This document shows positions 720 to 25,311 of a stretch of DNA of 32,759 nucleotides, one piece after another. The notes under the pieces are model-generated. The model made no database searches and had not been told where the DNA came from. It saw only the letters and a list, made by a program, of their open reading frames with translations. Where the stretch lies: the NCBI GenBank assembly GCA_001940705.1, contig MEHG01000012.1:1-32759 (forward strand), written 5' to 3'. Position numbers and translations under genes: made by a program. The DNA comes from Candidatus Thorarchaeota archaeon AB_25. Its GTDB lineage: Archaea; Asgardarchaeota; Thorarchaeia; Thorarchaeales; Thorarchaeaceae. The first letter of the stretch is position 1, and each line of letters begins with the position of its first letter.

Positions 720-964
720 TACAAAAAAATTGAGCACCCCATCTCAGTAATATTATCAGGATCGAACAGATATATCACAAGACAAATTAATCAAATCAGC
801 ATAAGTATTTCAATAAAAGTTGAACAGAACTAGAAAATCAATGCCCAATGTCTGTTGATTCATCACATCAACATGTAATAATCAACGAGTGCTGTTGGTA
901 TGTGCAGATTATGTGCCGCCAACCACATGTGAATGCATTGATGCTTGATAAAAGAGGCTACAGA

Positions 965-3900
965 ATGAGAAGAGTCCTGATTCCACTCCTAATACTCGTT
1001 ATCATACTCTCAGTTCCATCTGCAAGTAATGTATATTACTCCCAAATTAATGATGATGGTGTTCATGAACTGATGACAAATGAGCGAGTCATATTTGCAG
1101 CTGAAGGAAGTGGCAACGACTCAAACACAGTCGCGTTCTTTTCAAGGCTTGAAAATGGAAAACAAACTGGAATCTATAACTCATATCTTGATTCTTCACA
1201 TAATGGATTGATAGATCTCACAGAATACCAAGTCGCAGGATGGACTCTTTATCGTGCAGATGTTGAAGCGAATAGCATCATTGCCGCTCCAGAACGAGAA
1301 ACACTAGGTGTTTCGCCAAGTACTTACAACCTTATCCTAAACAATTCAGGAGTAATAACTGACGCATTATACCAGGAATTCTATGGACAATCTCATGATG
1401 GAAAATTGGAGAATTACTCTATAACGTACCTTTGTTCATACTATGCAGCATTTCTTGGACATGCATATCTTGGAGTAAGAAGTGACTATTCGGATCCTCA
1501 AACAAATACCACCAGTTGGATTACGCCCTTTACAATACAAGGTGCGGCCACAGATCTTACTCATGACGTTTCAGGCGATAATGCCATTCTAAACGCTAGT
1601 ACTCCATATTATGTCGTGATAGATGGTACAAAAATGACTGGGATGGATTTAGGGGGATGGAAGTTCAATACCATATGGTGGAGTGCCCAATTTCCACTCC
1701 TGGGTCTTGATACAGCCGAGCATATCAGGGGAGATGGCTGGTATTCATTTGTTGGTGGAAATCCTAGGGAAGCCTTAGTGAACTACACGTATACACCCTG
1801 GAATAAGACATCAAACTCACCGTTGAGTTATGCAACTGCTGAGTTAATATCCCTCACAAATACCACTCATGCCCTTGCTGGAACATCTTGGTCGTTCATA
1901 TCTGACACAAACATAACTCAGATTTCATTCCAATCAAATCAATCAGTTGAGATTGACTATGATATAACTCTCTGGTACAAAAAACCAGTTATAGCAAATA
2001 CAAACTGGAATTTACAAACACCAGGACCCAATGTTGAATGGAACGCTACGACTAGTGTTAGTTATCCAATGTTAACAGGCACGATAGAGAGGTCTCTTAA
2101 CTACTCAGTTCAGGCAGACTGGACTCCCTCAGCACTCTATAATGGCTCTGACTTGATTGCAGGCACTCACACGAAGTACAACACAATTGTTCACTGTACA
2201 GACATGACTAATGGCACATGGATACTGTCATCCTTAGCTCCCAACTATGTCGGTAATATTGACCTTACTGGAGTCACAGATGGCAAGGTAAGCATTTTGA
2301 CTGACATGGATATTGATGCAACAATCGAGGATGGAGACGACACTCCCATGACAGGCGGGACGACTAATCTCACTGTACTCCAAGCAGGAAGTAGTGTCAA
2401 TACCTCGGAGATTGCCGCCACAGATGGCTCTGCTAATTTCATATGGGATATAGATTCTACAACGTTGGGTAATGGTACACATTCGATTGAGATCTGGTGG
2501 ACAAACGGCCTAGAAGCCGGATATAACGTAACGCAGGTGTTTGTGTATTATCCAACAACACTAGTAGCAGATGACTACAGTATCACAGCCTATACCGACA
2601 ATACCTTTGATATTGGTATTGATTTCAATCAGATATTTCCAGTCAGGGGTCTTGACATACCGATAGCAAATGCGACCTATTCCTTTGGAAGTCTATTCAA
2701 TGATACAATGACCAATATTGGCGGAGGAAGATGGACCAAGACAGTTTCTACGACCTCCATGATAAGTGGGACATACCCCCTCACCGTCTACGCAGAAGGA
2801 TTCGCACTTGAAAATCAAAGCCTGGTAATATCAGTTGATCTCACTATTGAAACACAGGCTCTCAATTGGAACTGGCTTCCCAGTAATGATATCACATACC
2901 TCCAGAGTACAAATCTAACAGTTACGTATCAAGATTGGAGTAGTACTGCTATCTCTGATGCATGGGTGAATATTACGTTTGATTCAACCACGTATGATAT
3001 GAAGTGGGATGCTCTATCAGAGCTTTACTGGATTCAGCTTAACGGATCAGATTTTCTGACCGTTCCAGGAACCACAATAATGACAGTCAATGCCTGGAAA
3101 GCAGATTTCACTGCTCAATACAATGATACAATTACTATAACAATTAGCGAAGAAACTACAGGGATAGTATTAGATCCCGCCTGGAATCCAACAGATCGGA
3201 ATATAACCTACATTGAACAGATTACTATTACTGCAAACTACACCTACAACTCAGTACCGATAAATGATACTTGGGATGGCGTTTGGGTAAGGGTAACATT
3301 CAGTGGTTTCCCGCTAGTGAATATGACCTATAACGGTGTATTAGAGCTGTGGGAAGTAACTCTAGATGGTAGTGATTATTTCGGAGTAACGGCGGTCACA
3401 ATCAGAGCAAGTGCAGAAGGGTATAGTCAAAATTCGGTGGGACCAGTGAATCTCATAGTCACTGAAGATATTCCATCTCTTGCTAATTCGTGGACTGCTT
3501 CATCCGAATCGACGGATTATGCCACCGATGTTCCTCTGACCATCACTGTTAGAGATTCGAGTGGAACCCCAATCACAGATGCCAATGTTTCGTTTTCTGC
3601 ATTTGGAACAGATTACGAACTATTAGTAGGTGCAGGCGGACAATACACATTCAATATTGCACCAACATTTACACCAGGACTAGAGTCATTCACGGTATAT
3701 GTTGTTAGAACCGGTTTTGTATCAACACAAATGAATCTCAACCTGACTGTGAATGCTACAACAATAATAGATGTAGTGCATATCAGTTCTGAATATGAGG
3801 AGTGGAATCTTATAGTCACTGTGACTTACGAGGATTCTGTTTACAACAATAAAATTACTGATGCATTGGTCACAATGACATTGGATGGAAATGTCTACAT

Positions 3901-5470
3901 CCTTGAAAATTCAACTGAAGGCTACACAATAGAGATCACCCTCGATGCACCGCCGGGTTCTTACACAATCGATGTTTCAGCTTCTGCATTGTATGCTGTG
4001 ACTGCAACAAGCCAGACTGACTTCACAATACTTCCCAAAGAAGTGGTCTATCTTGAGGTAACGTTTGATGGAGATTTAATTGCAGGTCAGTTCATGGAGA
4101 TCCGTGCTACCTTGAGATCCAATGATACGCCCCACCCACCAATCCCGGGAGAGCCAATACGGTTTGAGGTTTCTGTGTATTTTGATAATGGTACAACAGT
4201 TCACTACACAGAGGGGACAATGATAGATTCAACCAACACTGAAGGTGTAGCGACCTTTGGATTCGAAGTGCCGTTCGGAAAAGTGAATAAACTGACTGCA
4301 CGTGCGATCTATGATGGAAGTCGCACTAGATGGAACGCAGAATTCATTAAAGAAACTGGTGTTGGCGTGAGTCCACTTTCACTTCTGCTGGCATTCTTCA
4401 TGAGCGATATTGGTATCCTGATGATTATCTCCATCGCACTCCTTGGTATAGTGGCTGCAGGATACAACCGCGGTGTTAAGCCAAAGAAGAAAGCAACAAA
4501 ACGTGGTCTCGAGAATCAGCTACAGATGTTCAAGGATCTTGAAACTGTCCAGCACTTCATGGCGGTCTACCTCGATCGCGGGACATGTGTCTTCTATCAT
4601 CCATTCACGGAAGAGAGAATCCAACCAGACCTAATCAGCGGCTTCATCGCTGCTATCACAAGTGTCTATGGTGAGATCAAGGGAGATGGAGTCAGAGGAA
4701 CGCTGGAAGAGATTCAGTACCACGGACTTCGTCTAAACAGCTACAGCGGTCAGTACATCATTGGCATCCTCATACTTGAGGGTGAGATGACACCACTCCT
4801 CAGGGAGCGACTTCAGTTCTTTGTGGAGTTGTTTGAGAATCAGTATGACCAAGACCTTGATGGCTGGACAGGACTTATCGACTGCTTTGATCCTGAATGG
4901 GTTGTTTCAACTCTAAACTCTTCCTTCAACTATGCCTGGCACTTACCTCACAGATTTGGACCCACACAGAAAGTAACCAAGTTGGATGCTAAGATTCTCG
5001 ACTACATCGGAGCAGTACGAGATGAATGGAGTGAGTTCTACATCAAGAATCTAGTATCTCCCTTAGGAGAGATGTTAGAGAAGACCGAGGCAGAGGTGTT
5101 AGACAGGCTGCTATCGCTCCAAGACCGAGGGGTAATAGTTCCGATTGGCATTCAGACCATTCTTCAGCGTCAAGGACTAGCTTTGGTGAATGGCACAGAT
5201 GAGTCTATAGTTGGACCTCCACCCAGTATTGACGAACCCGCAGTTGTTGATGAAGCTGAGCCTGCTGAGGAGCTCGAGTTCGAGGAGCTTGCGGAAGAGG
5301 TTGTCAAAGAACCAGAACCTGATGTGGACCCAATGGAGGCGTTTGTCCAAGATGTCGAATCACTTCTTGTTGCAAAGTCAGGTGAGGAGAAGAAAGACGA
5401 CAATGAAATGGACAAATTAGCGAAAGAGCTAAGAGCCAAGATTGAGGAAGACGAAGAGTCAAAGGACTAG
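965..5470 (+). CDS. Large surface protein: signal peptide, Ig-like repeats, single TM, cytoplasmic longin-like and winged-helix domains, acidic tail
   Basis: The ORF is open from 848. ATG at 965 (MRRVLIPLLILVIILSVPSAS signal peptide), preceded by GAGG at ~953, is the likelier start. There are dozens of NxS/T sequons. A TM lies at ~4396-4470 (SDIGILMIISIALLGIVAAGY), followed by KPKKKATKRG and a soluble domain. Confidence 0.85.
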   Translation: MRRVLIPLLILVIILSVPSASNVYYSQINDDGVHELMTNERVIFAAEGSGNDSNTVAFFSRLENGKQTGIYNSYLDSSHNGLIDLTEYQVAGWTLYRADVEANSIIAAPERETLGVSPSTYNLILNNSGVITDALYQEFYGQSHDGKLENYSITYLCSYYAAFLGHAYLGVRSDYSDPQTNTTSWITPFTIQGAATDLTHDVSGDNAILNASTPYYVVIDGTKMTGMDLGGWKFNTIWWSAQFPLLGLDTAEHIRGDGWYSFVGGNPREALVNYTYTPWNKTSNSPLSYATAELISLTNTTHALAGTSWSFISDTNITQISFQSNQSVEIDYDITLWYKKPVIANTNWNLQTPGPNVEWNATTSVSYPMLTGTIERSLNYSVQADWTPSALYNGSDLIAGTHTKYNTIVHCTDMTNGTWILSSLAPNYVGNIDLTGVTDGKVSILTDMDIDATIEDGDDTPMTGGTTNLTVLQAGSSVNTSEIAATDGSANFIWDIDSTTLGNGTHSIEIWWTNGLEAGYNVTQVFVYYPTTLVADDYSITAYTDNTFDIGIDFNQIFPVRGLDIPIANATYSFGSLFNDTMTNIGGGRWTKTVSTTSMISGTYPLTVYAEGFALENQSLVISVDLTIETQALNWNWLPSNDITYLQSTNLTVTYQDWSSTAISDAWVNITFDSTTYDMKWDALSELYWIQLNGSDFLTVPGTTIMTVNAWKADFTAQYNDTITITISEETTGIVLDPAWNPTDRNITYIEQITITANYTYNSVPINDTWDGVWVRVTFSGFPLVNMTYNGVLELWEVTLDGSDYFGVTAVTIRASAEGYSQNSVGPVNLIVTEDIPSLANSWTASSESTDYATDVPLTITVRDSSGTPITDANVSFSAFGTDYELLVGAGGQYTFNIAPTFTPGLESFTVYVVRTGFVSTQMNLNLTVNATTIIDVVHISSEYEEWNLIVTVTYEDSVYNNKITDALVTMTLDGNVYILENSTEGYTIEITLDAPPGSYTIDVSASALYAVTATSQTDFTILPKEVVYLEVTFDGDLIAGQFMEIRATLRSNDTPHPPIPGEPIRFEVSVYFDNGTTVHYTEGTMIDSTNTEGVATFGFEVPFGKVNKLTARAIYDGSRTRWNAEFIKETGVGVSPLSLLLAFFMSDIGILMIISIALLGIVAAGYNRGVKPKKKATKRGLENQLQMFKDLETVQHFMAVYLDRGTCVFYHPFTEERIQPDLISGFIAAITSVYGEIKGDGVRGTLEEIQYHGLRLNSYSGQYIIGILILEGEMTPLLRERLQFFVELFENQYDQDLDGWTGLIDCFDPEWVVSTLNSSFNYAWHLPHRFGPTQKVTKLDAKILDYIGAVRDEWSEFYIKNLVSPLGEMLEKTEAEVLDRLLSLQDRGVIVPIGIQTILQRQGLALVNGTDESIVGPPPSIDEPAVVDEAEPAEELEFEELAEEVVKEPEPDVDPMEAFVQDVESLLVAKSGEEKKDDNEMDKLAKELRAKIEEDEESKD

Positions 5471-5536: not shown

Positions 5537-5839
5537 ATGCCTTGGAACATTGATAACTACAACATCCTCGACGGGCGCATCCTAAGAGTGGAAATCTCCG
5601 TTCCGCTGATGGAGTTCATGTATCTCAAAATAGATGACGTCAAAGAGGCGTGGATAAATTTTCTTGGTCAGTTTGTTTCAGAACAGCCAGGGATAGACAT
5701 GTCTTGGGAGATGGAGCCTCAAGATGATAATGCCTTGGTCACCCTCAAGATTGCTAAGATTGGTGACCTTCCCGAGTTCAGCCCCGAAGAAGCCCGAGGC
5801 GCAATTGATGCAGTTGACGCGCTCTTTGATAATGCGTAG
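5537..5839 (+). CDS. Small acidic protein, unknown function
   Basis: 100-aa ORF between the surface protein and the convergent LarA-like gene; protein-like composition. Confidence 0.6.
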   Translation: MPWNIDNYNILDGRILRVEISVPLMEFMYLKIDDVKEAWINFLGQFVSEQPGIDMSWEMEPQDDNALVTLKIAKIGDLPEFSPEEARGAIDAVDALFDNA

Positions 5840-17814: not shown

Positions 17815-20800
17815 ATGGCATTATCCCCATCAAGATTCAGACCCGTCGCAAGAGAGATTTCTGTAGGAAACTCCTATCTTCTGAAATGGAGCGTTGTCTT
17901 CATCACGCTGTTATTCCTATCAGTTCCAACGCCAGACCGGGTCATGGTGCAGCCCGTGATGCCGCAAGATGCCATTTCAATTCAGGACCAGTTTGATACA
18001 GCATCCAACTTCATTGGTGTAAAGCTTCCGTATCCAATCTTCTCAATCGCTCCTGGAGAGATTCCAATAGGTACAGGATTTGCATACATCCATGACGAAA
18101 CGATACGATTTAAAGATCCAATCAATCAGCTGAACGACTCTGAAACAATAGGACCTGGAGATGTACTTCACGAAACCCTCATCGGAGATGACATTGATAA
18201 TGATGGGTATACCGAGTTTCTATTCATCATGTTTAATTACACGGCTACAATGTTTAACTTAGTAATTGTCGACTTCGATGCGAGTTCTGTTATAGGATAC
18301 GACTGTCTTATACCAGGACCGTTCGAGATACTCTTGGGTAATTTCACTCCTGATGCTCAAACGGATGCTGCAATCTATGGATATGATTTTGTATTAATCA
18401 AGGATTTGAGCGATGGTTCTGACTTCGGATTTTACAATCCAGTGGGTGATATTACGCGTGCGTGCGTTGGCAATTTCACAGCTACACCCCAACACGAGAT
18501 AGCAGTACTAAGTACAGATTGGGCAACTGAAAAGGTCAATGTTGCCATCATCTCTGGTGACGGAACCGAAATTAAGTGGATAGAACATTGGGATAAGTCA
18601 CAGGCACATGACATTGTGAAGGTGTCCAGACGATTGTTTCTAGATGATATTGCAATAACATTGTTCGACCAAGACCTCTTCACTACTGATTTAGTCGGAC
18701 TCTACGGCAACAATCTCACACCGATTTTCAACACTAAGATGCCAGAGTATCAGGGTTCCTCATTTGTAAAAACTGGTCATTTCAATGATGACATGATAGA
18801 GGATATTCTTGTTGTGCCGGGACAATGGCATTCTGCATGGTTCTATGATGGATTTGACGGTATGTTTCTCCGGCATTCTCAGGAACCGTGTAATAGTTAT
18901 ACGTATCATGGATTTGACACAGCTGTATTGGATTCAGACTCCTACAGTGATTTAGCAATAGAAGGTCCCCGAGGACAGCTTGCACTGATCAGAGGGAGTA
19001 CGGGTAAAATAGGATACGAGGAGCACAGGATTCCAGGATCCTTTTTCCAAGTTGTAACATATGATATTGATCAAGATGACCGTGAAGATATAATCACTGT
19101 GATGGGAGCTGTGTCTATTCTATTAAGTGACACAGAAACTCCTAATGTGGAACTGGATCCACTATACCCCGCCCACCCAACTATTTATGACACGTACATG
19201 AAGATCGAGCTCACTGCGACCGACAACATCTTTGTTGAACGTGCTACAATTTTCATCAAACCCACGGGAGGAATAACCACACCCTTCCTGTCAAATGAGA
19301 TGATTAAAGCTCCAAATGACAAGTTCATTTTCATCACCACAGACCTTCAAGCTGGTGATTATCTCTATTACATCGAGATCAGAGATTCATACCTGAACTC
19401 ATTCTCGTATGGGAATGAAACACATCCCGTGACGCTTACAGTAGATGACCATTTCGTCGATGGCGTCTACTACAATGCAACAATAGACGAAGCAATGGGT
19501 CATGTATTGGCCATGGGTAACTCCTCAACTGGTGAAGAGCGTATTCATATTTTAACCTCCGATGATTCAGATAGTACTACAACAATGCGGACTCTCTCAC
19601 CCGACGGAACCTCGATTTCAGATTTCGTAATCAGAAAGGCAACCACACTAGATACTTTCGAGGTCTATTGTGGTATGTTTGATGGAGACGCAGTATTAGA
19701 CCCTGTAGTTGTCAAATATAACAGGACTCATACCGTGTTCTATGTGATTCATGGAAATGATTTGACCTCCTGGCAGAATGTTTCTTACAAGGAATCACCA
19801 GCAATGCTACACGGAATATTGAGTGTATTCGATGATGACCAAGATGGTTTCGATGAAATTCATTACGTACAGGGGAATTATTCAGCTTATGCTCTTAGCA
19901 GAGTTGAGCATGACTTTTCATCATCAATCAACGACTATTTGTCAAATAATGGTGAAGTTGTTGAAATTGCTTATGCCACAATATCAGGAGCAAGACCTCA
20001 ATTGGCCATCCTCAGAGAGAACAATACAATAGATATCTTTCAAGCATACAATGTCACATTACTGAAGACACTAAGCTATTCCTCGCCGGGTTCTACGCAA
20101 GGAGATATGCCCCTTGGAATTGTGTCATATTCAAACACCAGTCACGTGAGTGAACAGTTCTTAGTTGGCTATAGCGGCTGGTCAGGCGATACGCCCCTTG
20201 TCTATCTCTGCTTAGTTGACGACCAAACGCTACAAGTAGGGGATGCTCCTTACACCGAATTATTGGGTGATCACATTAAGGGTGTGTACACCTCTGATAT
20301 AGATCTCGATGGAATTGACGAGCTGTTCGTTTTTGAAGAATCAGGTAATGTGACTCTGTGCGACTTGGCGTATGCAACACCCAGACAATGGTCGGTATTC
20401 GTCAGCGAGGCATTCCCAATCAGTACGGTTCTGCTAGACTATGATGGAGATGGTGCAGACGAGTTTCTCATCTCAACATCGGATGACATGCTTACAGCCA
20501 TCAATTTCCAAGGAGTCATTGATTATCAGGCTCAAGTTGGAATGATATTCAATATGGCTAGTGTGAGCAGTGTCGATGTTGGAGTTGGTGAAGATATAGC
20601 AGCGTTTCCAATATTTCGTGCCCGATACAGTTTGGCAACAATCCGCAATATTGATCTCTTGTACATTCTGAATGCGACTTTCGCTTTAGAGTCAAGTACC
20701 ACTCTTCAGGGCAGCAGCATCTGGGCTAACACCACAGTCTTAAACGCCTATAACGAACCCGTTTCTGATTCAATGGTTTCACTGACAGCTGAGTACGAAT

Positions 20801-23800
20801 TCGGGAGTGGAACATCACAGCAGACACTTGGACTAGTCTATGATGACATATTGCAGCTCTATGCAACCACTGTTACTCCGAATTGGCCAATTGGTATGGT
20901 AAACCTGACACTCAACATAAATCATGATTACTTCGACCCATTCACACTATTCCAGGCAGATGCCCTGAGGGTGGAGTCGCCTCTGACCATCTCCATTATT
21001 CGCGAACCCGAGTTGCTGCAAGGCAATGATCTTGAGGTCAATATCACTGTGTCGGACAGTCTAGGTGGAAAGGTCGCAAATGCTGATGTAACATTGACGT
21101 TTGATGGTACAGACTACATAGCAACTCACATAGGACAATTCTACTACGCATTGATTCCAAGTGTAACAAAGGCTCCTGGGAGCTATGGCATTCTGGTTTC
21201 TGCTAATCATAGCTACGCAACAGGTGTGAAGAATCTAGCAAGCTCAGTATCTATCCTCACTAATACTCTGACCATAGAAAGAAGTTCCCCCAGTCAAGTA
21301 ACTCAAGACCAGTACTTTGTAACATGGCTTAACATTACAGACGAGTATAGCAATTCCATCATCGGTGCTGATGTGAGGATTAGCTTTGATGGAAATGAGT
21401 TTCTGTTAACCGAACCACAGCCAGGCAGATATAAGCTAAACACTACGGCCGCATTGCCTGTTGGTAATTACACAGCTAGAATCACCGTTGAACACCCTTA
21501 TGTTGAGGGTAGAAACTTTGGCAATTATTCTATGGTAGTAAAAGGAAACCTGTACCCTGTAGTCAACTATGAATCCACAGTCAGTGGGGGAGAGAACTTC
21601 ACAGTCACCATATTCATCTATGATTCATACGGTGCCGCACCTGATGGTGCGTGGGCGACTGTGGAGCTGGGTGGAAGTAACTTCACAGCTTCACATATTT
21701 CAGGTGCAGAATACAGTGTCGTGCTAAATGCATCACTTAGTATTGGCCCTCAAAGCTTTGTAGTGTATGTTGGATCTGATTTTGGAAACTCACGATCAGA
21801 CATTCATGACCTCTACGTATACTCGTTTGCCAGTATGGATGTTGACTCTTCCCTTGGGTGGATTTTGAACCAAGGTGATTCAACGGATCTTATTCTTACA
21901 CTTGCAGATTGGTATGGAAACCCAGTTTCTGGTGCGACTGTTACAATGCTTAGCCCAAGCAGTCTTGCATTCATAGATAACTGGGATGGAACGTATTCAG
22001 TGACATTGGACACAAACGGATATGCCCCAGGCAACTATTCCCTGATTGTGTATGCAGAACACACCTACCTAATTGAAGCTGACTTCCATACCGTACTAAC
22101 AGTAAACGGTCAGTCCGTAGTTGATGTAGAAATACCTGACCTTGTCTGGAACCATCAGAACGTGACAATGTATTTCGCAGTAATTGACATATACGGGAAC
22201 CCGCTGTCATACTTCGATTACACGCTTACCTTCGCAGGAACCTACTTCAAGTCAGGGACGTCAGACTGGTATGAGCTGACTTGGGATTTCTTACCAGATC
22301 TCTATCCAGCGTCGTATCCATTAGACATTGTAATTGATGGAAACTTCCTTGCTCATTATGAATACACAATCTGGGTCGATGTGATGGGAGCTCCGTCTTC
22401 AAGTGTCCTGTCGCCTTCAAATAGCTCCACAATTACACAGGGCGATCTAGTAAACTTCACAGTCAATGTGGAAGACTTGAGTAATTACGACATTTCCGGT
22501 TGCCAAGTAAGTGTTACAATCCATGGGAGCAGTTATACACTGACTGAAGGTGCCGCCGGGGTTTACTCGAGAAACATCCCAACAGCTGGATTTCCACTAG
22601 GTCAATATAATGTGACAGTCAGAGTTACTCATACCTTCCTAGACTCGCAAGAGATCTCTATGATTATTTCATTAGAGGGCCTTGCTGATGTCAAGCTGTC
22701 ATACTCGCCATTCCCAGTGCAGAACAAGTACAATGTAACATTCAACTTCACAATAACAGACCAATACGGGAACCCGCTTTCGGACTTTGATTATAGCTTA
22801 GACTTCGCAGGAGTATACAATGAAACAGGAACGTCTGCGACTTATCGGTTATCCTGGACTGTTCTTCCAAGCTTCGCGCCTGGCACTTACACTCTGAACA
22901 TAACACTGGATGGAACATACCTACTACATTCGACATTTGCATATTTGATTGTCGTCGAGGGAATAGTTTCCGCCAGTATTCTTGCGCCGTTAGATGGTGC
23001 TTCGTTCTCACAGGGAACCCCAATTCAGTTCAGGGTACACGTGCAGGATGAGCTGTTCTTCAACATAACGGGAGCAACTGCTGAACTTGATTTACTTGGT
23101 AACACTTACGCACTAACAGAAGAATCGGAAGGCATCTACACGGTTACTATAGCCACTACTCAACTGCCGCTGGGAGAATACAATGTCAAAATTACAGTGT
23201 CCCAGGGTATGACCGATACTCTAGCTTACGTGGACATCTCAATTACAGGAAGTGCACGTATCACCGTGATAGCCAACTCTACAATTGTACTGAACTATCA
23301 GAATGTAACCTATGATATCAGTGTGGCTGATCAATTGGGCAACCCAATCTATGTTTTTGACTATGTGTTTGATTTTGGTGGAGTATACGGTATTTCGGGC
23401 ACCTCTACATCATCCCTCAAGTCTTGGACATTAAGTCCAGAGCTTGTGCCGGGACAATATATTCTCAACATTACTGTTGTAGGACTGCATTTTCCATCTG
23501 AAACCCGCATTGTGAATGTCCAGGTGAGAAGTGACACAGTTACATCTGTTCTATCACCACTGAACAATAGCCAATACATCCAAGGCACCGAAGACGTTCT
23601 CTTCACTTTGAACCTTGAAGATATGCTTGGTAATGTCATGATTGGGGGTTCAGTTTCAGTCCTCATACATGACTCATTCTACATGTTGACCGACCATAAC
23701 AATGGCACATACTCGATAAGCGTGTCGACGGACGGTTGGGCAGCTGGAATGTACAACTACACTTTGATGGTCGATCATCCCTTCTTGGCACAAGACGCAT

Positions 23801-25311
23801 CTATTGGAGGCTCCCTGGAGATATTTGCAGAGCTGAGTTTTTACATAGAGTATAGTCCCGAAGAACCTGTAAAGGGAGAACAGGTCAACATCACGATTGA
23901 AGTTACAGACAAATATGGAAATCCAATGTCCGGTCTTTCTGTTCATGTGACATTCCGAAATCATACTGAAGAAGCAATAGAAACATCCCAGATTGGGACC
24001 TACTTCGTGAGTTTCATTGTGACGGGAGAGGGTTTCGGTTGGGACGATATCGTGGTCAGTGGAGAGGGCACGAGATGTGTCGCTGATGTAGGAAGTATAT
24101 CTGCAAATGTTATCGTACCTGCGCCGCAGCTCTCACTAAGTGTTGATAACTTCGGAATTATGGCTCTGGGTTCATTCCTCATTAGCTTCATTGGCTTACT
24201 TGTCTACTTCAGAATCTCTTCCGGACTGTCGATCACCAGAGGAACTCAAGAGCAGCTCACACGAGGACTCCGAAGATTAGATTACCTCTATCTTGGTGTA
24301 GTCGGGCTTGCTGGATTGACTGTTGTACATTCATATATTTCAGCGGGAGCTGGTGATTACAGCCTTGCGGTACTAGAGAGCGTATTGTTACTTGGTATCT
24401 CGCTAATCCTGTATGGAATATGGCTCTATCGAGATGCCAGTTCAACAATACTTCAATCACAGGCTGTGGGCAGAAGGAGGATGCTTCTTGGTCTGTGGCA
24501 CCTGGTCTTTGTTCCACTTGTCATCATACAGATATTTGATTGGGGAAAGAACATCGAGTGGCTTGATTTCTACGTGCTACAGAATGTGTTCCATCTTGGC
24601 GAACTGGCAATCCCAACTATAATGCTGACGATATTCGCTGCTTACATCTCATCTATTGTGATCGTTGTTGTCAACCTCTATAGAGAGATCAGCAAGGGTC
24701 TCTATCGGATTCGAGAGATGGCTGTGCTTGGAACACCCCCTATTGTAGTAGAGCAGGAGTGCGTAGATCTGGTAGAAAAGATGGGTTCATCCATCCGCAT
24801 GAAGTTCTTCATGTTCCTTGTAGTTCTAGCAGGCACATCTGTACTCACGATGGACTTCTTGAAGAGCTATTCTCTTGGTGTCATAGTGCTGATGCCGGTC
24901 TTATTCCTCGTGGTTGTTCCATTTGCATCCTCAAAGATGGCAAGGGGTATTTCCAGAGCTTCGAGAGGACGACGTGATAGACCAGACGAAGATAGCTCGT
25001 TGGCTGAGATTGCAGACGAGGTGGTCGACACTGATACCTCCTTTGATATGAAATCATATTATGAGCCAGAAACTGAACTTGAACCTCCGGATGTAGAAGA
25101 ACCTCAAATCTTGGAAGAGCCTGAACCTGAAGAGGATATCAGCGAGGTCAAACCAAGTCGAGGTCTGAAGAAGAGCGAGCTGATCAAACTTCTTCCGGAA
25201 GATGTAAAGGAGTCAATCGGACTCGATGAACTCAAGAAGCTCTCAAAGGATGCGCTTGAAGCCCTTTTAGACCTTGAAGAGATGGGATCAAAGAGTAAAG
25301 ATGTCGATTAG
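17815..25311 (+). CDS. Giant surface protein: signal peptide, FG-GAP/VCBS propeller, Ig-like repeats, 7 predicted TM helices, acidic cytoplasmic tail
   Basis: 2498-aa ORF. N-terminal hydrophobic segment WSVVFITLLFLSVP; at least six DxDxDG-type loops; repeated Ig-like units; TM cluster 24130-24950; acidic C-terminal tail. Confidence 0.9.
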   Translation: MALSPSRFRPVAREISVGNSYLLKWSVVFITLLFLSVPTPDRVMVQPVMPQDAISIQDQFDTASNFIGVKLPYPIFSIAPGEIPIGTGFAYIHDETIRFKDPINQLNDSETIGPGDVLHETLIGDDIDNDGYTEFLFIMFNYTATMFNLVIVDFDASSVIGYDCLIPGPFEILLGNFTPDAQTDAAIYGYDFVLIKDLSDGSDFGFYNPVGDITRACVGNFTATPQHEIAVLSTDWATEKVNVAIISGDGTEIKWIEHWDKSQAHDIVKVSRRLFLDDIAITLFDQDLFTTDLVGLYGNNLTPIFNTKMPEYQGSSFVKTGHFNDDMIEDILVVPGQWHSAWFYDGFDGMFLRHSQEPCNSYTYHGFDTAVLDSDSYSDLAIEGPRGQLALIRGSTGKIGYEEHRIPGSFFQVVTYDIDQDDREDIITVMGAVSILLSDTETPNVELDPLYPAHPTIYDTYMKIELTATDNIFVERATIFIKPTGGITTPFLSNEMIKAPNDKFIFITTDLQAGDYLYYIEIRDSYLNSFSYGNETHPVTLTVDDHFVDGVYYNATIDEAMGHVLAMGNSSTGEERIHILTSDDSDSTTTMRTLSPDGTSISDFVIRKATTLDTFEVYCGMFDGDAVLDPVVVKYNRTHTVFYVIHGNDLTSWQNVSYKESPAMLHGILSVFDDDQDGFDEIHYVQGNYSAYALSRVEHDFSSSINDYLSNNGEVVEIAYATISGARPQLAILRENNTIDIFQAYNVTLLKTLSYSSPGSTQGDMPLGIVSYSNTSHVSEQFLVGYSGWSGDTPLVYLCLVDDQTLQVGDAPYTELLGDHIKGVYTSDIDLDGIDELFVFEESGNVTLCDLAYATPRQWSVFVSEAFPISTVLLDYDGDGADEFLISTSDDMLTAINFQGVIDYQAQVGMIFNMASVSSVDVGVGEDIAAFPIFRARYSLATIRNIDLLYILNATFALESSTTLQGSSIWANTTVLNAYNEPVSDSMVSLTAEYEFGSGTSQQTLGLVYDDILQLYATTVTPNWPIGMVNLTLNINHDYFDPFTLFQADALRVESPLTISIIREPELLQGNDLEVNITVSDSLGGKVANADVTLTFDGTDYIATHIGQFYYALIPSVTKAPGSYGILVSANHSYATGVKNLASSVSILTNTLTIERSSPSQVTQDQYFVTWLNITDEYSNSIIGADVRISFDGNEFLLTEPQPGRYKLNTTAALPVGNYTARITVEHPYVEGRNFGNYSMVVKGNLYPVVNYESTVSGGENFTVTIFIYDSYGAAPDGAWATVELGGSNFTASHISGAEYSVVLNASLSIGPQSFVVYVGSDFGNSRSDIHDLYVYSFASMDVDSSLGWILNQGDSTDLILTLADWYGNPVSGATVTMLSPSSLAFIDNWDGTYSVTLDTNGYAPGNYSLIVYAEHTYLIEADFHTVLTVNGQSVVDVEIPDLVWNHQNVTMYFAVIDIYGNPLSYFDYTLTFAGTYFKSGTSDWYELTWDFLPDLYPASYPLDIVIDGNFLAHYEYTIWVDVMGAPSSSVLSPSNSSTITQGDLVNFTVNVEDLSNYDISGCQVSVTIHGSSYTLTEGAAGVYSRNIPTAGFPLGQYNVTVRVTHTFLDSQEISMIISLEGLADVKLSYSPFPVQNKYNVTFNFTITDQYGNPLSDFDYSLDFAGVYNETGTSATYRLSWTVLPSFAPGTYTLNITLDGTYLLHSTFAYLIVVEGIVSASILAPLDGASFSQGTPIQFRVHVQDELFFNITGATAELDLLGNTYALTEESEGIYTVTIATTQLPLGEYNVKITVSQGMTDTLAYVDISITGSARITVIANSTIVLNYQNVTYDISVADQLGNPIYVFDYVFDFGGVYGISGTSTSSLKSWTLSPELVPGQYILNITVVGLHFPSETRIVNVQVRSDTVTSVLSPLNNSQYIQGTEDVLFTLNLEDMLGNVMIGGSVSVLIHDSFYMLTDHNNGTYSISVSTDGWAAGMYNYTLMVDHPFLAQDASIGGSLEIFAELSFYIEYSPEEPVKGEQVNITIEVTDKYGNPMSGLSVHVTFRNHTEEAIETSQIGTYFVSFIVTGEGFGWDDIVVSGEGTRCVADVGSISANVIVPAPQLSLSVDNFGIMALGSFLISFIGLLVYFRISSGLSITRGTQEQLTRGLRRLDYLYLGVVGLAGLTVVHSYISAGAGDYSLAVLESVLLLGISLILYGIWLYRDASSTILQSQAVGRRRMLLGLWHLVFVPLVIIQIFDWGKNIEWLDFYVLQNVFHLGELAIPTIMLTIFAAYISSIVIVVVNLYREISKGLYRIREMAVLGTPPIVVEQECVDLVEKMGSSIRMKFFMFLVVLAGTSVLTMDFLKSYSLGVIVLMPVLFLVVVPFASSKMARGISRASRGRRDRPDEDSSLAEIADEVVDTDTSFDMKSYYEPETELEPPDVEEPQILEEPEPEEDISEVKPSRGLKKSELIKLLPEDVKESIGLDELKKLSKDALEALLDLEEMGSKSKDVD
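18184..20660 (+). other. FG-GAP/VCBS (integrin-alpha-like) beta-propeller region
   Basis: DDIDNDGYTEF (18187), LDSDSYSDLAI (18928), DIDQDDREDI (19063), DDDQDGFDEI (19832), DIDLDGIDEL (20297), DYDGDGADEF (20439). Confidence 0.75.
22111..23820 (+). repeat. Three tandem A/B Ig-domain super-repeats, 570 bp (190 codons) each
   Basis: B-type modules begin at 22111, 22681 and 23251 (exact 570-bp spacing). A-type modules begin at 22390, 22963 and 23533. Shared motifs are D-YGNPL--FDY-L-FAG-Y--SGTS (B) and SVLSP-N-S---QG---F (A). Confidence 0.8.
24130..24950 (+). other. Seven-helix transmembrane region
   Basis: Seven hydrophobic segments, from GIMALGSFLISFIGLLVYF to LGVIVLMPVLFLVVVPFAS; alternate loops are Arg/Lys-rich. 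Confidence 0.7.

Follow-up and report, generated by a model that had tools for sequence, protein, structure and literature searches.

The DNA analysed here (the window, 32,759 nucleotides and a complete contig, C12, of a Thorarchaeal genome that is 85% complete) encodes a type I single-pass membrane protein, in which a long, beta-rich ectodomain is joined to a cytoplasmic domain with a predicted longin fold. We lean, if only slightly, towards the view that this protein is a surface receptor or contact protein whose longin forms a platform on which a Ras-superfamily GTPase docks. Asgard archaea are relatives of the cells ancestral to eukaryotes, and eukaryotes use longin-type domains to handle small GTPases and vesicles. 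Asgard genomes encode many small GTPases and longin and roadblock proteins, and whether these imply membrane trafficking is debated. A conserved longin receptor locates this machinery at the cytoplasmic side of the plasma membrane and provides it with a possible input in the form of outside contact. The longin at its inner end suggests that the cell surface is wired directly to the switch machinery inside the cell and, if this is true, receptor-to-GTPase signalling would take place within one polypeptide. The receptor family supplies specific proteins and interactions for testing, and it is also present in Lokiarchaeia, a lineage with cultured members.

Membrane topology and ectodomain

The receptor is encoded by an ORF of 1540 codons without interruption (848-5470; 1540 aa) on the forward (+) strand, as are all other features of the window given below. 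Position 848 is the start of the longest possible ORF, and the probable start codon is the ATG at 965 (residue 40), which stands directly before MRRVLIPLLILVIILS, a signal peptide by hydropathy. The hydropathy profile of the ORF has two strong peaks only, at residues 40-60 and about 1176-1207. The first peak corresponds to the signal peptide MRRVLIPLLILVIILSVPSAS (965-1027) and the second to a transmembrane segment (4373-4468), after which comes the basic stretch KPKKKATKR (4478-4504). This stop-transfer sequence places the C-terminal part of the protein in the cytoplasm. With its signal peptide, one transmembrane segment and positive-inside stop-transfer, the receptor is a type I single-pass membrane protein, and its full architecture is signal peptide, all-beta ectodomain of about 1,110 residues, one transmembrane helix, KPKKKATKR, longin, winged helix and acidic tail. 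The sequence-only reading of this DNA had already proposed the single transmembrane segment and the stop-transfer, which hydropathy and sequence bore out, and the segments it quoted were found where it had placed them.

The ectodomain consists of an N-terminal, all-beta part without an assignable fold (1028-2287) and a stretch of putative Ig-like or beta-sandwich repeats (2288-4372). The repeats were delineated from sub-threshold Pfam matches to CarboxypepD_reg (residues 898-976), Big_1 and fn3_3, and matches to CarboxypepD_reg and Big_1, likewise below threshold, are also present in the ectodomains of orthologs. These matches are consistent with Ig-like ectodomain repeats, short of proof. For the first 514 residues of the ectodomain, AlphaFold2 predicted nearly all strands (pLDDT 80.5), and a Foldseek search of the PDB gave no good match to a solved fold (query TM-scores of at most about 0.2). 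Complement/alpha-2-macroglobulin, EphA4 and Fusexin1 were considered as ectodomain folds and rejected, their TM-scores of about 0.15 reflecting generic beta-sandwich similarity. The receptor had been described as Ig-like with an adhesive ectodomain; the sub-threshold matches bear out the first description in part, the N-terminal part being all-beta with no good fold match, and adhesion is a putative role. The window also encodes a second surface protein, of very large size (17815-25311; 2498 aa), which has matches to Invasin_D3, Big_7 and Big_1, several hydrophobic segments close to its C-terminal end and an acidic tail at that end.

The cytoplasmic longin and winged helix

The longin domain (residues ~1233-1370; 4544-4957) was identified by structure prediction and by profile searches. 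An alignment of the window sequence with 53 orthologs (A3, 54 sequences) served as input for AlphaFold2, and the resulting model of the cytoplasmic part (pLDDT 82.9, pTM 0.78) has the element order helix, b1-b2-a1-b3-b4-b5-a2-a3, followed by the winged helix; this is the topology of a longin. When the model was compared with the PDB using Foldseek, all 15 matches with E<0.001 were longin proteins, namely AP sigma subunits, zeta-COP and related COPI chains, Fuzzy and a TRAPP core subunit. Next in the list were Sec22b (TM-score 0.71 by target length), VAMP7, sedlin and Mon1-Ccz1.

The window protein has no direct match to any Pfam longin model and its cytoplasmic domain has no Pfam match above the cut-off, so that automatic annotation would miss the longin. 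A profile built from alignment A3 found two soluble Asgard proteins, L101 (G022:C1) and L102 (G021:C1), with E-values of 9e-21 and 1e-18. The longins of both pass the cut-off of PF19036 (Fuz_longin_1), and in both proteins the longin continues into an Arf-family GTPase (PF00025 at 1.9e-21 and 1.1e-23). The AlphaFold2 and Foldseek results and this independent sequence route agree, and hence the predicted longin fold is well supported. A longin-like domain at this position had been suggested from the letters alone, and its kinship now extends to distant Asgard relatives above the PF19036 cut-off; neither a fold other than the longin nor a known sensor domain unrelated to it emerged from the prediction. 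A search of the host genome with PF01217 gave no match but is uninformative, as the model matched in no control genome either, and sequence searches of the PDB with both profiles returned chance-level matches alone. Another alignment (A1, 16 rows) was too diverse as a seed for the collection scan. C-terminal to the longin, the AlphaFold2 model contains the winged helix that had likewise been suspected (residues ~1376-1434; 4973-5149), which also has a sub-threshold HTH match.

The cytoplasmic part shares features with several known longin systems. Fuz/Mon1/HPS1-type proteins of eukaryotes are cytosolic, have several longins and lack an ectodomain. The receptor resembles these PF19036 longins, which include the Rab GEFs Mon1-Ccz1 and Fuzzy-Inturned, in having a longin fold, with Fuzzy and Mon1-Ccz1 in the Foldseek list, and in that its Asgard profile family includes members above the PF19036 cut-off, whereas that model has no direct match in the domain encoded by the window. 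Npr2 and Npr3 of the GATOR1/SEA complex act on Rag GTPases in eukaryotes. Their longin is followed by winged helices (PMC3521125), and the likeness to the receptor is one of domain order; the receptor has one winged helix in the AlphaFold2 model, while Npr2 and Npr3 have three and possess neither a membrane span nor a surface domain. Longin SNAREs (VAMP7, Sec22b) and AP sigma or zeta-COP have a single longin fold and a membrane context in common with the receptor. The SNAREs, however, consist of an N-terminal longin, a SNARE helix and a C-terminal membrane span, whereas the membrane span of the receptor precedes the longin, and neither Pfam nor the sequence gave a SNARE match, so that the layout is not that of a SNARE. 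Closest in lineage and domain family are the soluble longin, longin-GTPase and longin-ESCRT fusion proteins of Asgard archaea. The accessible parts of three papers (PMC4917890, PMC10933270, PMC10936438) already report longin-GTPase fusions as well as combinations of longins with Ig-like, HTH or TPR domains, the latter in ESCRT-related proteins, but in those parts the layout of signal peptide, ectodomain, single transmembrane segment and longin is not described for Asgard longin proteins. We found no published receptor with this layout in the literature searched, which covered few subscription journals.

Conservation, tail motif and a linked orphan gene

We surveyed the distribution of the receptor in one genome per species for 232 Asgard species and counted matches with E < 1e-60 as strong orthologs. 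The domain profile matched in 210 of the 232 genomes, and 89 contained a strong ortholog. These were mainly Thor- and Lokiarchaeia, with 35 in the family to which the window belongs, 43 in the Loki-type family f2 and 11 in three other families. Most of the strong orthologs (62 of 89) have frames of 1000 codons or more, 33 of the 37 ortholog ORFs with a complete N terminus have a hydrophobic segment near this end, and a transmembrane segment is found shortly N-terminal to the longin in nearly all ortholog loci. The fusion of an ectodomain to the cytoplasmic domain, first noticed in the window alone, thus recurs with the same domain order in dozens of Thor- and Lokiarchaeal orthologs, excluding a chance origin of the architecture. 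Among Thorarchaeia, identity in the first half of the longin reaches 97% within the genus and 92% between genera, compared with 19-66% for 50-residue blocks of the ectodomain, and selection is thus strongest on the inside part. A conserved face of the longin is found at a1 (P-x-L-I-S-G-F).

In several Loki matches, in-frame TAA codons raised the possibility of recoding, which we rejected; in the three loci checked they are ordinary stops just after the winged helix, and the profile overruns these stop codons. A contig labelled Bathyarchaeota (L095) carries the receptor up to the contig end. It was not counted as spread outside Asgard archaea: it resembles the Asgard locus L110 and may be mis-binned or mislabelled. 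Loki orthologs have about 200 extra helical residues in place of the Thor-type tail, and one of them has weak TPR/MIT-type matches. At L066 (7399-7827, -) and 10 further Loki loci, a gene that appears roadblock-like by eye lies on the strand opposite to the receptor ortholog, about 2.7-3.2 kb downstream of it.

The C-terminal tail of the window protein (5150-5467) is acidic and, in the alignment by region, of low conservation. Against these poorly conserved surroundings stands out the motif FVQDVESLL (5342-5368), which follows the pattern F-x-x-[DE]-[VL]-x-x-[LI]-[LMI] and contains [DE]xxxL[LMI], a core that resembles an acidic dileucine motif. The pattern is present in 25 of 25 Thorarchaeal tails, twice in four of them, with 0.03 occurrences expected in total after shuffling, a contrast inflated by the kinship of the sequences and obtained with a pattern written after the tails had been inspected.

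The immediate downstream neighbour of the receptor is an orphan gene for a protein of 100 aa (5537-5839). This gene lies directly downstream of the receptor in 24 Thorarchaeal loci and keeps its position even where the next gene, which is lactate racemase-like, is missing. It is present in 29 of 38 Thor-family genomes, in two of them at a distance from the receptor, and essentially nowhere else in the sample. Both genes occur in 27 Thor-family genomes and neither in 7, with one or the other alone in 2 and 2 (Fisher p 9e-5, a value weaker than it appears because adjoining genes go missing together in incomplete genomes). The 100-aa protein has no relative in Pfam, NCBIfam or the PDB, profile comparison revealed no relation to the longin, and no homolog was seen in the Loki receptor loci. 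Its conserved linkage makes the gene a probable operon partner of the receptor.

Possible coupling to small GTPases and competing explanations

Coupling to small GTPases appears the likeliest function of the receptor, which could act as GEF, GAP, scaffold or sorting factor. The link is made by association, from the longin-Arf fusions in relatives, the approximately 25 small GTPases of the host genome (23 Arf-profile and 27 Ras-profile matches) and the known biology of longins. Longin/roadblock dimers are common docking platforms for small GTPases (PMC10933270) and Asgard longins are already known within the small-GTPase toolkit (PMC10933270, PMC4917890). A highly conserved longin combined with a variable ectodomain is as expected for a fixed inside partner and variable outside targets. 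A scan that did not extend to all of the largest ORFs and the last ORF revealed no GTPase gene in the window, and there was no GTPase among the conserved neighbours seen around the receptor.

We hypothesize that the variable beta-sandwich ectodomain would bind an external target, which may be another cell, a surface or a polymer, and that the receptors would then cluster and their cytoplasmic longins probably dimerise. The longin would dock a Ras-superfamily GTPase on the inside of the membrane, at the site where the ectodomain makes contact. The complex could be completed or regulated by the winged helix and the tail motif and, in Thorarchaeia, also by the 100-aa operon partner. More tentatively, the receptors of Thorarchaeia, Lokiarchaeia and some other Asgard families may represent an undescribed class, in which outside contact would be converted into small-GTPase control via a cytoplasmic longin without a kinase or G-protein-coupled receptor and, in Thorarchaeia, with an operon partner of its own and a docking motif in the tail.

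Against the GTPase model stand the lack of a GTPase gene in the scanned part of the window and among the conserved neighbours, the lack of a direct Pfam longin match, and the fact that longins such as AP sigma subunits and those of SNAREs, which are among the best Foldseek matches, can function independently of GTPases. The main rival explanation is a sorting or anchoring device, with the longin binding a short peptide, either [DE]xxxL[LMI] in its own tail or one in a partner, so that the receptor would be localised or clustered in the manner of AP sigma with no regulation of a GTPase. Acidic dileucine motifs are ligands of AP-sigma longins, and the longins of SNAREs fold back onto the chain to which they belong. 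The high rank of AP sigma, zeta-COP, Sec22b and VAMP7 longins in the structural comparison and the acidic-dileucine-like motif in every Thorarchaeal tail favour such a device. However, the motif was examined in Thorarchaeia alone, Loki orthologs have a different, helical tail, and to our knowledge no clathrin-type coat has been established in Asgard archaea. Overall, we consider this explanation unlikely, if a serious one.

A long, beta-rich ectodomain and the very large surface protein that the window encodes besides the receptor would suit a structural surface-layer or adhesion protein, with a cytoplasmic part that merely anchors it to an internal scaffold or the cytoskeleton, but conservation peaks in a domain of the signalling or trafficking type and not in the ectodomain, making this role improbable. 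We regard as very improbable a membrane-tethered transcription regulator, whose winged helix would bind DNA and whose longin would be merely a sensor or dimeriser. The winged helix with its weak HTH matches is present, and the Loki winged helices, although mixed, are neutral to basic on average (median pI 8.3). The winged helix of the window protein, by contrast, is acidic (pI 4.5, net charge of the recognition helix -2) and has no basic DNA-binding surface, so that this protein is unlikely to bind DNA; the mean net charge in Thorarchaeia is -2.7, and the alignment by region shows the winged helix to be less conserved than the longin. Finally, we give next to no weight to the cytoplasmic domain being another PAS-, GAF- or roadblock-like sensor in place of a longin: these folds are related to the longin, the AlphaFold2 model starts, like roadblock proteins, with an additional helix and LAMTOR-Rag entries appear lower in the Foldseek list, but longins fill the top of that list and relatives score above the cut-off of a longin sequence model.

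Longins were also noticed in other settings. One locus of the host genome (L097, G000:C19) contains two adjoining soluble longin-like genes of 300 and 425 aa, next to a gene judged by eye to encode a MinD/ParA-like ATPase, and paired longin matches recur in many relatives. At two further Asgard loci (L022 and L025), seven to nine hydrophobic segments are followed by a longin of the receptor's family, and these proteins are possibly a multi-pass counterpart of the receptor.
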